A DNA stretch of 64,000 bases from Agarivorans aestuarii (GTDB lineage Bacteria; Pseudomonadota; Gammaproteobacteria; Enterobacterales; Celerinatantimonadaceae). Under the pieces are notes generated by a model. The model saw only the letters and a list, made by a program, of their open reading frames with translations, did not search any database and was not told the DNA's origin. The stretch covers positions 4,616,001-4,680,000 of the forward strand of contig NZ_AP023033.1 in assembly GCF_019670125.1 (NCBI RefSeq). The letters run 5' to 3'. Positions 8,945-12,808 of the stretch are shown here, piece by piece. Numbering within the stretch: the first letter of the stretch is position 1; every line of letters starts with the position of its first letter. Made by a program: the position numbers and the translations under genes.

Positions 8945-10306
8945 ATGGAACAACAACGCCAATATTTGCTTGATGCCCCCATCACGCCGCTTATTATCAA
9001 TAAGGCGAGTCCAACTTTAGTTGGCATTTTTGCGATCATCTTTTTTAACCTTGTTGATACCTTTTTTGTTGCCATGCTCGGCACCGATGCGTTGGCTGGC
9101 GTATCTTTTACTTTTCCCATTACCTTTGCCATCACCAGTGTTGCTATGGGCTTAGGCATTGGCTTGTCGTCCCATGTAGGACGGCTACTGGGGGCTCGTC
9201 AACATCAACAGGCCGCCCAACTCACTAGCCATAGTTTATTGTTTAGCCTACTGCTAATTATCGCTATTGCCGGCTTGGGTTATTTCAGCATTTATCCTCT
9301 TTTCAGCCACTTAGGCGCCGAATTACCAGTAATGCCCTATATTGAGCAATATATGCAAATTTGGTATCTCTCGGTTCCGCTATTAGTGATACCCATGGTG
9401 GGCAATAGCGCCATAAGGGCCAGTGGCGACAGTAAAACCCCCAGTATAGTGATGCTGGTTGCTGGTATCGTAAATGGCATATTGGACCCAATTTTTATTT
9501 TTGGCTGGGGGCCTGTGCCGGCCATGGGGGTGCAAGGAGCCGCTTTAGCCACTGCAGTAGCTTGGGCACTCACCTTTAGTGTTGCTGTTTACCTACTGAG
9601 TTTTAAATTAAAACTACTACGCTTTGAAGCTTGCTCTATTAAACAGCTTCTCGCCTCTTGGAAAAAGTTGCTTAGCATCGCCATTCCGGCGGTGTTTTCT
9701 CAGCTGCTTACTCCCATAGCCACCACCATAACCTTGGTGATTTTGGCCAGTGCCGGCACAGCAACCGTTGCCGCCTATGGCTTTGCCACACGGGTAGAAG
9801 CCTTACTATTTATTGGTGTAATGGCGATTAACTCGGTGATTCCGATGTTAGTTGGGCAAAATGTTGGGGCTGGCAAAGCACAGCGCGCCCAGCAAATCGT
9901 TCATCATGCCATTAGGCTAGCGGTGGTTTGGCAACTGTTGCTCGCTATCGCAATGTACGCCTTAGCCCCTTTAGTGAGCTATAGCTTTAATCACGATGCA
10001 GAAGTGGCTGAGCTTAGCCAATATTACTTACAACTAGTACCTTTTTGCTACGGCATGATGGCTGTGCCCTTATTGCTAGCTCAAACCTTAAACGCCTTAG
10101 CTAAGCCACTGTTAGCAATGGCGATAAACTTAATTCGCTTGTTTGGTTTTATGTTACCGGCCATTTATATCGGCGCGATGTGGGGAAGCAGCAAAGTAAT
10201 ATTTTTAGCGATTATTATTGCCCATACCTTGGCGGGCTTGGCGAGCTTAATCATATTGATTTGCTTGATGAGCAAAAACAGCTGGTGGCAACATTCGCAA
10301 TCTTAG
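8945..10306 (+). CDS. MATE family multidrug/sodium antiporter
   Basis: A 453-aa inner-membrane exporter with about twelve hydrophobic segments arranged as two similar halves. The N-terminus reads PTLVGIFAIIFFNLVDTFFVAMLGTDALAG in character and the second half begins near IAIPAVFSQLLTP, both typical of the MatE fold. It probably uses Na+ or H+ to extrude cationic compounds; the substrate cannot be read from sequence. It converges on the first csr-type RNA, whose terminator hairpin it shares. Confidence 0.88.
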   Translation: MEQQRQYLLDAPITPLIINKASPTLVGIFAIIFFNLVDTFFVAMLGTDALAGVSFTFPITFAITSVAMGLGIGLSSHVGRLLGARQHQQAAQLTSHSLLFSLLLIIAIAGLGYFSIYPLFSHLGAELPVMPYIEQYMQIWYLSVPLLVIPMVGNSAIRASGDSKTPSIVMLVAGIVNGILDPIFIFGWGPVPAMGVQGAALATAVAWALTFSVAVYLLSFKLKLLRFEACSIKQLLASWKKLLSIAIPAVFSQLLTPIATTITLVILASAGTATVAAYGFATRVEALLFIGVMAINSVIPMLVGQNVGAGKAQRAQQIVHHAIRLAVVWQLLLAIAMYALAPLVSYSFNHDAEVAELSQYYLQLVPFCYGMMAVPLLLAQTLNALAKPLLAMAINLIRLFGFMLPAIYIGAMWGSSKVIFLAIIIAHTLAGLASLIILICLMSKNSWWQHSQS

Positions 10307-10319
10307 TTTCGCAGAAATG

Positions 10320-10725
10320 AAAAAAGGCGACACAAATGTGTCGCCTTTTAAGTAGTCATATTGCTCTTATCCGTGAACAGTAATTGCTCCTTGCAATCCT
10401 TTTGACTGTTGCACACCAATCCTTAGCGTTTCCTCTTCCCAGTTCCTTTGAGCTTTCCTTTAGCCTTCTATGGCATAAATGTTCATCCTAAACACTTGCT
10501 CTCTCCGTCCTGGAGGTATCCTTTAACTTCATCCTGAAAGTTTGAGGTATTTTGCTTTCTAGCACTCCTGTGCTGACATCCTAATGTTTATCTTCCTTGA
10601 TAAACGTGCTCTTCCTAAGCAATGCTTCCTAATACCTTGGCATCTTGCCCTGACTCTTCCTAAGCCTTGGCTCGTCCTGATGGTTAATACTTTACGCCGA
10701 TCACTTGTTAATCCCAGTAGCCAAA
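10320..10725 (-). ncRNA. CsrB-type CsrA-sequestering RNA, copy 1
   Basis: Read on the minus strand this is a non-coding RNA of about 400 nt with 20 GGA motifs (mostly AGGA or AAGGA) about every 20 bases, several within small hairpins. It ends in a strong intrinsic terminator (GGCGACAC, four-base loop, GTGTCGCC, then T6). This is the design of CsrB/RsmZ RNAs, which titrate the translational regulator CsrA. A 23-base block at 10456-10478 is identical in all three copies. The 5' end is not determined; conserved sequence with copy 2 reaches about 10720. The terminator is symmetric and may also end the MATE transcript. Confidence 0.85.
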
Positions 10726-10847
10726 ACTAAATAATTTCAGTTTTAACCATTAAAAAATAAGTATAAATACATAAGAAACTGAAATATAAAGATTTAAATT
10801 AACACAGGCTTATTAACTAACTGACATTACCCGCTGCAGCTCGGGCG

Positions 10848-10859
10848 GATCTCTCACAC
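10848..10859. promoter_or_regulatory. GacA/UvrY-type half site upstream of csr RNA copy 1
   Basis: GATCTCTCACAC, matching one half of the TGTAAG-N6-CTTACA box bound by GacA/UvrY-type response regulators. It is about 120 bases upstream of the presumed RNA start. The same 12-mer stands upstream of copy 2; the other half is poorly conserved here. Confidence 0.5.
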
Positions 10860-10983
10860 AGGCCATGGCAGATAAAGAAACTACCAGATCGAGATTAATA
10901 ATATAAAAACCCAACTAATTACAGGTTATCCATTAAAAGTTCTGCTGATAGGCAATAAACCCTAACAGTAAATAGCAGGCAAA

Positions 10984-11390
10984 GAAAAAGGGCGACACAT
11001 ACGTGTCGCCCTCTTAGTAGTCATATCGCTCTATTCCATGAACGTTAATTGCTCCCTGCAATCCTTTTTGACTGTTTCACACTATTCCTTAGCGTTTCCT
11101 CTTCCCAGTTCCTTTGGGCTGTCCTTTAGCCTTCTATGGCATAAGCGTTCATCCTAAACACTTGCTCTCTCCGTCCTGGAGGTATCCCTATACTTCGTCC
11201 TGAAGCTATTTGGTATTTTGCTTTCTAGCAATCCTATGCTGACATCCAAACTCATCTACCTTGATAAGCCTGCTCATCCTGAGCGCTGCGTCCTAAATAC
11301 CTCGGCGTCCTGCCTAATTCTTCCTGAATCTTCGTTCGTCCTGATGGTTGATACTTTACGCTCATCCCAACTAAAGCCCAGTAGGCCAGA
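10984..11390 (-). ncRNA. CsrB-type CsrA-sequestering RNA, copy 2
   Basis: Second paralogue, about 400 nt, clearly alignable to copy 1 over its whole length, with 20 GGA motifs on the minus strand. The terminator is GGGCGACAC, loop, GTGTCGCCC, followed by CTTTTTCTTT. The identical 23-base block is at 11122-11144. The 5' part shares GCGTAAAGTATYAACCATC with copy 1. A short plus-strand open frame at 11218-11439 is a by-product of the repeats, not a gene. Confidence 0.85.
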
Positions 11391-11512
11391 AACAAAAACA
11401 TCTAAACAAAACTATTACTTAAGAGGTAAAAAACAATAAACTATTGAATAATAAATATAATTTATTAACAGCACTGACAAACAAAGAGATTTATCGGTCT
11501 AATAGAATGGTC

Positions 11513-11524
11513 GATCTCTCACAC
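11513..11524. promoter_or_regulatory. GacA/UvrY-type half site upstream of csr RNA copy 2
   Basis: GATCTCTCACAC, identical to the site ahead of copy 1 and at about the same distance (roughly 120 bases) from the presumed RNA start. Confidence 0.5.
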
Positions 11525-11675
11525 GGTCTTTAGTCGATCACCAAATATGCAACTAAAGTGAGCAGCCTTTAAATTGCTATTTATCTACATAAACCCTGTT
11601 AAGAAGAATATAAATCTAAGTGAATAGCTTTTAGCTTAATGATAAAGCTAAATAGGCGAACAAAATTCAAACAAT

Positions 11676-11700
11676 AAAAAACCCAGCACTTGGCTGGGCT
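11676..11700 (-). terminator. Second terminator behind csr RNA copy 3
   Basis: On the minus strand AGCCCAGC, short loop, GCTGGGT then TTTTTATT. It follows directly after copy 3's own terminator and would stop read-through towards copy 2. Confidence 0.65.
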
Positions 11701-11705
11701 TAGAA

Positions 11706-11988
11706 AAAGGTCGGGGCGACACTTTCGTGTCGCCCCTAGTAGTCATATCGCTCAAATCCGTGAACGGGTAGTTGCTCCCTGCAATCCTTTTTGACTGTGT
11801 TACTACGTCCTGTAGTTATCCTTTTCTCAAATCCTTTGAGCTGTCCTTTAGCCTTCTATGGCATAACCGGTCTTCCATACCAGTTGCACGTCTCCTTCCT
11901 AGGAGGTGTCCCTTGCTACTTCCTGTAGCTGTTCCTTTTTAGCTCCTGCTACGTTTCTCATCCTGATAAACGTCAGTGCCTCCGTGCA
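11706..11988 (-). ncRNA. CsrB-type CsrA-sequestering RNA, copy 3 (shorter)
   Basis: About 280 nt with 16 GGA motifs. The terminator stem is GGGGCGACAC with a GAAA tetraloop and GTGTCGCCCC, followed by GACCTTTTT. The identical 23-base block is at 11844-11866, and the 3' third aligns closely with copies 1 and 2; the 5' half is shorter and more diverged. A good -10 (TATAGT, complement of 11995-12000) sets the likely start near 11988. Confidence 0.85.
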
Positions 11989-12145
11989 CAAACAACTATA
12001 CGGAATCTAAGTTTGAGAAAAAGCCGCATTAGCAAAAAACTTTCAATTTTTTACTTACAAATTCTTACAAAAACCATAAGAGACTAATTTAAAAGGAAAT
12101 TTACTTTTAACAACTGTAAGCAAAGCTGCTTTTAACGCACAAGCT

Positions 12146-12163
12146 TGTAAGAGATATCTCACA
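12146..12163. promoter_or_regulatory. Complete GacA/UvrY-type box upstream of csr RNA copy 3
   Basis: TGTAAGAGATATCTCACA is a near-perfect 18-bp palindrome matching the TGTAAG-N6-CTTACA consensus known upstream of rsm/csr RNA genes. It is about 160 bases before the presumed start of copy 3 and in the 3' flank of the TRIC gene. Confidence 0.72.
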
Positions 12164-12187
12164 CCACCCATCGGCATTTATCGCTAA

Positions 12188-12808
12188 CTAACGATTTTTA
12201 GCAAGCTTAGGTAGTGATAAATGGTAGCGAATAGCCACTAAGCGAATAACTAAAGCGGTCAAAATACAAGCACTTGTAGCAATAGTGACCGAAAACTCCA
12301 AGTACAAGGCGGCCACCCAAACTAAGCCACCTACAATACAAGCAGTGGCATACACCTCTCGTTGAAGTACTAAAGGAACTTGATTGGCCAGCACATCGCG
12401 GATCATTCCTCCGCCACAGGCGGTAATTACTCCCATGGTAACGGCCACAATCATTGGCGCACCAAATTGATAGGCTTTATCGGCACCAATCGCCATAAAT
12501 ACCGCCATACCTATCGCATCTGCGACCGGCAGTAACCAACGAGGAGGAGTTGGAAAGTTATTAAGCAATAATACAGAGGATAAACTGGCCACTAAAATCA
12601 CCCATAGGTACAAGCCATTCTCAACCCAAAACACCGGGCTAGCACCTAAAGCCATATCGCGGATAGTACCGCCGCCAATGGCAGTAACACAGGCAAGCAC
12701 TAAGGCACCAAATAAATCCATTCGGCGACGACTGGCTATCAATACCCCGGAAATAGCAAAGATTGCGGTACCAAATAAATCGAGACTAAATATGATGCTG
12801 TTGCCCAA
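12188..12808 (-). CDS. TRIC family (UPF0126/YadS-like) cation channel
   Basis: A 206-aa inner-membrane protein with about seven hydrophobic segments and an internal duplication visible as GGGTIRDMALG (about residues 46-56) and GGGMIRDVLAN (about 131-141). Prokaryotic TRIC homologues form trimeric monovalent cation channels; the physiological role in bacteria is unclear. The gene stands alone, downstream of nadE on the same strand, with a nadE terminator between them. Confidence 0.85.
   Translation of the reverse strand: MGNSIIFSLDLFGTAIFAISGVLIASRRRMDLFGALVLACVTAIGGGTIRDMALGASPVFWVENGLYLWVILVASLSSVLLLNNFPTPPRWLLPVADAIGMAVFMAIGADKAYQFGAPMIVAVTMGVITACGGGMIRDVLANQVPLVLQREVYATACIVGGLVWVAALYLEFSVTIATSACILTALVIRLVAIRYHLSLPKLAKNR

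Follow-up and report, generated by a model that had tools for sequence, protein, structure and literature searches.

A head-to-tail array of three CsrB-type RNA units with different UvrY-type upstream sites in Agarivorans aestuarii

The locus described here lies in a stretch of 64,000 nucleotides (the window, G000:C1:4616001-4680000, within which all coordinates are given) of the Agarivorans aestuarii genome, which was analyzed as one contig of 4.69 Mb and is labelled G000. Two genes assigned by Pfam flank the locus: a MATE family gene (PF01554; 8945–10306, plus strand), which is convergent with the array, and a Gly_transporter family gene (PF03458; 12188–12808, minus strand), which lies upstream of the array on the same strand. 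The gap of 1.88 kb between them (10307–12187, from the MATE stop to the 3' end of the PF03458 gene) contains three head-to-tail minus-strand CsrB units. An initial annotation had described a protein-free stretch of about 1.9 kb with three minus-strand units, and both points were borne out; the sole open reading frame of at least 60 aa inside the gap, which was considered as a protein-coding alternative and rejected, is antisense and 73 aa long. Among the matches listed, the closest named locus is that of Agarivorans sp. Toyoura001 (L032), in which the flanking PF03458 protein is 93% identical.

With starts as predicted here, the minus-strand units would give RNAs of about 286 nt (copy 3, 11703–11988), 403 nt (copy 2, 10982–11384) and 399 nt (copy 1, 10322–10720). 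In a covariance search of the kind proposed with the annotation, the Rfam CsrB model (RF00018, gathering score 71 bits) matched all three, and these were the only matches in the genome at E <= 1. Copies 3 and 2 scored above the gathering score (83.1 bits at 11702–12009 and 81.7 bits at 10978–11303, respectively), and copy 1 fell 2.2 bits below it (68.8 bits at 10313–10640, E 1e-17); copy 1 is therefore called a CsrB paralogue because it is 85% identical to copy 2, and not by its score. Over aligned columns, pairwise identity is 0.846 between copies 1 and 2, 0.825 between copies 1 and 3 and 0.843 between copies 2 and 3, the 118 and 114 gap positions in the latter two comparisons being due to the shorter length of copy 3. 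The identical 23-base internal block reported previously was recovered at 11844–11866, 11122–11144 and 10456–10478. A weak Rfam match to MicX (10901–11024, minus strand; 29.7 bits against a gathering score of 75) was set aside as probably due to chance.

Each unit ends in a 3' intrinsic terminator of the common design noted in the annotation, a GC-rich stem-loop followed by a T run. The terminators of copy 3 (11713–11736, minus strand) and copy 1 (10322–10349, minus strand) were found by a terminator scan, as was a second terminator-like stem-loop after copy 3 (11679–11701, minus strand), and the stem-loop of copy 2 (10990–11011, minus strand), which is followed by TTTTTCTTT, is absent from the list of that scan. 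These terminators bear on the idea that the array is read through into one long transcript, which would be cut or act as a single large sponge. Long CsrB-like units with 44–64 GGAs do occur in relatives, including the first unit of the G007 cluster, and would be consistent with it; however, every unit here has its own terminator and its own upstream site, two terminator-like stems are present at copy 3, and the neighbouring csrB genes of Shewanella oneidensis are separately transcribed according to the available part of their description (PMC3171408). Read-through of this kind is thus considered very improbable.

The units are rich in the GGA motif. Copy 3 contains 16 GGAs (11703–12009), as annotated, whereas the 20 reported for each of the other two became 21 under the present boundaries (copy 1, 10322–10722; copy 2, 10982–11387). 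Of 2000 dinucleotide shuffles, 0 (copy 1), 2 (copy 2) and 4 (copy 3) attained these counts, and the 25 GGA-richest 400-nt windows on both strands of the 64 kb all overlap the array on its minus strand. Fold z-scores of the single strands were −5.26 for copy 3, −4.91 for copy 2 and −3.34 for copy 1.

Structure conservation was analyzed for the copy-1/2 lineage (u1/u2-type units) in an alignment of 14 of the 16 such RNAs from G000–G006, with G005 p3 and G006 u2 left out. The RNAalifold consensus comprises 83 pairs and 98.3% of its cells can pair, a figure that leans towards the fold because the fold was derived from the same sequences. Changes on both sides were found in 12 pairs, against 5.1 +/- 1.2 after shuffling, and none of 500 shuffles reached 12, whereas sliding the partners in this fold left only 1 to 3 pairs with two-sided changes. 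A measure of further pair types, for the same 14 rows, was no higher than in shuffles (339 of 500). In addition, 18 of the 21 GGAs are identical in 14/14 rows, compared with 76 of 381 other trinucleotides, and both Gs are unpaired in 16 of the 21 in the consensus fold, 61% of the columns of which are unpaired.

The genome does encode csrA, the absence of which had been named in advance as evidence against a Csr role: a single CsrA match was obtained, at 89.6 bits (cut-off 27), in a 59-aa frame. A UvrY orthologue that shares 72% identity with the E. coli protein (residues 1–215) and a BarA homologue with 46% identity (1–914) are also present.

The claim that a UvrY/GacA-type site stands upstream of each unit was borne out in part: an element was found for each of the three, but at copies 1 and 2 it comprises just one half of the palindrome. 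The full 18-bp palindrome claimed for copy 3, TGTGAGATATCTCTTACA, was found at 12146–12163 (minus strand) and is a single base away from the E. coli csrB site. Upstream of copy 2, the asymmetric element TGTGAGAGATCGACCATT (11506–11523, minus strand) differs from the csrC site of Salmonella at 2 bases, from that of E. coli csrC at 5 and from that of E. coli csrB at 6. Upstream of copy 1, the half site TGTGAGAGATCCGCCCGA (10841–10858, minus strand) matches the first half of the palindrome at 9/9 and the second at 4/9 positions, and differs from all three published sites by 6–7 bases. Within the window, GATCTCTCACAC occurs at 10848 and 11513 and GATATCTCACAC at 12153, with no further occurrence. 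In the whole genome, the palindrome pattern TGTRAGANATCTCTYACA has its sole exact match upstream of copy 3; with up to two mismatches allowed, one further place was found (with two mismatches), and the reversed control matched once. The half-site pattern TGTRAGAGATCNNCC, which was built from copies 1 and 2, matches exactly at those two places alone, with no control match.

When each unit's best upstream 18-base site was scored across the genus, with distances counted from the unit starts as set here, the 7/7 copy-3 units carried 17–18 of 18 palindrome positions at 150–152 bp before the start, and the 16/16 u1/u2-type units matched the first half at 9/9 and the second half at 3–5 of 9 positions, at 134–138 bp. 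In letter-shuffled windows (200 trials), a score of 13 of 18, which is that of copies 1 and 2, was reached in 7% and a score of 14 in 1%. By score alone the putative u1/u2 half sites are thus unremarkable, and it is their fixed position and conservation that carry weight.

We read TATAGT at 11995–12000 (minus strand) as the presumed −10 box of copy 3, and CGTATAGTT is found in 7/7 copy-3 upstream rows. A scan of 9900–12700 for sigma-70-type promoters found none, with 5.6 expected by chance, and the exact IHF consensus, which occurs 6 times in the window against a chance mean of 5.0, does not occur in the array. Before copy 2, the element TTACCTCTTAAGTAATAG (11412–11429, minus strand) is represented as TTACC[TC]CTTAAGTAATAG in 5 of 6 aligned u2-type rows (G002 does not have it, and G001 is outside that alignment); this element is a possible site for another regulator, which would hint at a second input to copy 2.

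Taken together, the Rfam matches, the conserved GGAs and hairpins, the presence of csrA, barA and uvrY and the position of the upstream sites back the CsrB-type identity that had been proposed. We consider it highly probable (about 0.85) that the locus comprises three functional, separately transcribed, UvrY-activated CsrB genes that titrate CsrA, as in ordinary Csr control. BarA would activate UvrY by phosphorylation, and phosphorylated UvrY would bind about 140–175 bp upstream of each gene. From the features above we infer that three separate RNAs would then be made, each ending at its own terminator, and that their 16–21 GGAs, many of them in hairpin loops, would bind CsrA and thereby free the mRNA targets of CsrA. 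As the copies carry a csrB-type palindrome (copy 3), a csrC-like site (copy 2) and a half site (copy 1), they probably differ in their response to UvrY. Weighing against this explanation as a whole are the score of copy 1 below the gathering threshold, the lack of a sigma-70-type hit and of an exact IHF consensus, the half-site scores within reach of shuffled windows and the measure of further pair types.

Comparison with relatives suggested how the array arose. A CsrB match was present in 12/12 genomes of the family that were searched, and all 7/7 genomes of the genus among them carry three to five copies at the array locus, flanked by open frames matching in size and order (Pfam identity is from the window alone). 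Three copies are found in G000, G001, G003, G004 and G006; G002 also has three, with copies 2 and 1 split by a stretch of about 2.3 kb that contains two open frames of 185 and 317 codons, stop to stop (L143); and G005 has five (L146), including p3 and p4, which lie 696 bp apart and share the same 290-nt core sequence, which we read as a recent tandem duplication. Among the genomes beyond the genus, G008 and G009 carry three CsrB matches each and G010 and G011 one each, G010 with a second GGA-dense stretch besides, and G007 combines one long GGA-rich unit with one short unit.

In a midpoint-rooted tree of 33 units (30 different), which has several long branches, all seven copy-3 units fall into one group (98/95), to which the short unit of G007 attaches (85/94), and the 16 u1/u2-type units fall into a second (92/93). 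Within the latter, the four copies of G005 group together (94/78) and the two of G004 do so weakly (83/34), pointing to re-duplication on the spot or to gene conversion. These groups imply that copy 3 is a paralogue in its own right that predates the genus sample, and that the kind that expands is that of copies 1 and 2; copy 3 is accordingly best described, on sequence grounds, as a separate lineage with a csrB-type site. The cluster would have been born by tandem duplication, in which one split gave rise to the copy-3 and copy-1/2 lineages, and the copy-1/2 lineage would have duplicated again in some species.

This history also bears on whether copy 3 is the one main RNA, alone under full UvrY control, with copies 1 and 2 losing function. 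The partial sites of copies 1 and 2 and the score of copy 1 below the gathering cut-off would fit such decay, but across six other species the copy-1/2 type keeps the 18 conserved GGAs, hairpins maintained by paired changes and intact terminators, and G005 even expanded this type to four copies; decay therefore seems most unlikely.

To place the array in a broader context, 247 genomes of the order were surveyed for CsrB at E <= 1e-4 under stricter filters, and matches were obtained in 134 of them, from 38 of 87 genera. Tandem copies were counted in one genome per CsrB-positive genus, the first in the list, and were defined as at least two separate same-strand matches with under 1 kb between them. 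Just 22 of these 38 genomes had a match that exceeded the gathering score. The annotation had held that multiple CsrB RNAs usually lie at separate loci. This is true of E. coli and vibrios, whereas tandem or neighbouring matches were seen in 9 of the 38 genera and 7 of 15 families (G000, G007, G009, G020, G021, G022, G025, G030 and G218, by table reading, the G025 pair consisting of two weak matches of about 32 bits), and the S. oneidensis pair is already published. The recurrence of tandem csrB in the order contrasts with the table of a 2014 review, in the accessible portion of which Csr/Rsm siblings are given as “distal” (PMC4211561). A pair in G012 whose members are separated by 1268 bp, including an open frame, was left out of the count, and 30 genomes chosen for multiple copies added two families, with three units in G096 and two each in G157 and G229.

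The flanks of the clusters vary by family: TatC/TatD in G218, DUF3549 in G020 and G096, MnmE with an epimerase in G141, a TetR/SlmA-type regulator with DUF3313 in G030, GNAT in G049, and DeoC with GNAT in G104. Clusters therefore arose, or moved, more than once. CsrB was also sought beside PF03458 genes elsewhere: 10 of 79 loci other than L032 have a GGA-rich stretch, and of 5 of those and L032 run through Rfam, only L032 matched. In family f11 (L173 in G141, L184 in G021, L186 in G083), the two copies of any one genome resemble each other more closely than they do those of the other genomes, a pattern of the kind left by concerted evolution or by repeated duplication. Giant CsrB-like units, with boundaries set by us, were also observed; they are 719–949 nt long with 44–64 GGAs, internal direct repeats and a terminal terminator-like stem-loop, and lie at L187 1560–2448 (G141), L170 1410–2260 (G012), L171 1430–2378 (G058) and, reversed, L177 1940–2700 (G216) and L148 2320–3038 (G007).

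The two kinds of upstream site extend beyond the family as well. For 39 of 40 GGA-dense units inspected at 20 loci outside it, the best upstream element was judged to be either palindromic or asymmetric, the latter roughly TGTRAGANATYNNCCATW; the first unit of G196 had no clear upstream element. In 55 genomes, the asymmetric pattern had 45 exact matches, 30 of which lie within 650 bp upstream of a same-strand CsrB match (21 of 25 in the genomes from which the motif was derived and 9 of 20 in the others), and its reversed control had 5. The palindrome pattern was near a CsrB match, strand ignored, at 46 of 53 places, and its control gave no match at all. Because the asymmetric site resembles the published csrC site, the idea that it is a new element was dropped, and the two classes parallel the csrB-type/csrC-type difference of E. 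coli and Salmonella. The other 15 of the 45 asymmetric csrC-type matches have no CsrB match nearby (e.g., G117:C74:7657, G138:C1:4156143 and G243:C27:82575); some of these lone sites may mark csrC-like genes missed by the CsrB model.

A rival reading is pure dosage, with interchangeable copies and upstream-site differences of no consequence. Near-identical copies within the clusters of relatives are in line with this reading (G005 p3/p4; pairs of 0.98–1.00 identity in 6 of 14 clusters, namely G141, G218, G104, G021, G022 and G083, other pairs having 0.77–0.94), as is the little effect of losing a single Csr RNA in other species, in the passages available from PMC11882849. However, the palindrome is kept in every copy-3 unit and the half form in every copy-1/2 unit of the genus, and drift is not expected to separate them. 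We give pure dosage a little less than an even chance.

Stepwise control of CsrA, as suggested in the annotation, is also plausible. In its specific form, the array would be a stepped switch of a csrB-type gene and csrC-type or half-site genes, in which increasing levels of phosphorylated UvrY, aided at copy 2 by an additional factor, release CsrA targets stage by stage, and lineages tune the second step by expanding the copy-1/2 type alone (G005) or by merging units into a single long RNA of over 40 GGAs (G007). We put this forward tentatively, as rather unlikely in all its parts. The reason for which bacteria maintain multiple, seemingly redundant Csr RNAs is a standing question, for which the array gives a tidy case: relatives have three copies, three with an insert, or five, with two site classes, so that experiments could tell dosage and site type apart.

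In our literature search, no paper was found on CsrB in Agarivorans or on tandem csrB genes; csrB predictions were reportedly made by Kulkarni et al. 2006, where a mention of such tandem genes is possible. A close known counterpart of the array is E. coli CsrB (RF00018), controlled by BarA-UvrY, which likewise has many GGAs in hairpin loops, an intrinsic terminator and a far-upstream UvrY palindrome; however, csrB and csrC of E. coli are single genes at separate loci, whereas Agarivorans has three units in a row. Phosphorylated UvrY protects the csrB and csrC sites of E. coli, as stated in the part of PMC4682653 at hand. The candidate site of copy 2 resembles that of Salmonella csrC, with 2 of 18 bases different, but the RNA of copy 2 matches the CsrB model and its site is further from that of E. 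coli csrC.

Parallels in arrangement are found elsewhere. In S. oneidensis MR-1, as described in the same excerpt of PMC3171408, csrB1 and csrB2 lie next to each other, and each has its own UvrY box and is transcribed separately; the Agarivorans genes similarly adjoin, each with a UvrY-type upstream element (here predicted), but the S. oneidensis locus has two copies with a transposase gene between them, and those of Agarivorans have three to five, mostly without an intervening gene. In Pseudomonas brassicacearum, rsmX-1 and rsmX-2 are tandem duplicates of a CsrA/RsmA-binding RNA under GacA, according to the text available from PMC7911923, and in this they are like the array; unlike it, they are two RNAs of about 110 nt from another RNA family, with more rsm genes elsewhere. 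Vibrio tasmaniensis, in the extract of PMC6262261, has several CsrB paralogues that arose by duplication as well (csrB1-4), which are differently regulated but, in contrast to those of Agarivorans, lie in different gene neighbourhoods. The Agarivorans triplet thus departs from the textbook layout, yet it has precedents, and tandem csrB is not unique to it.
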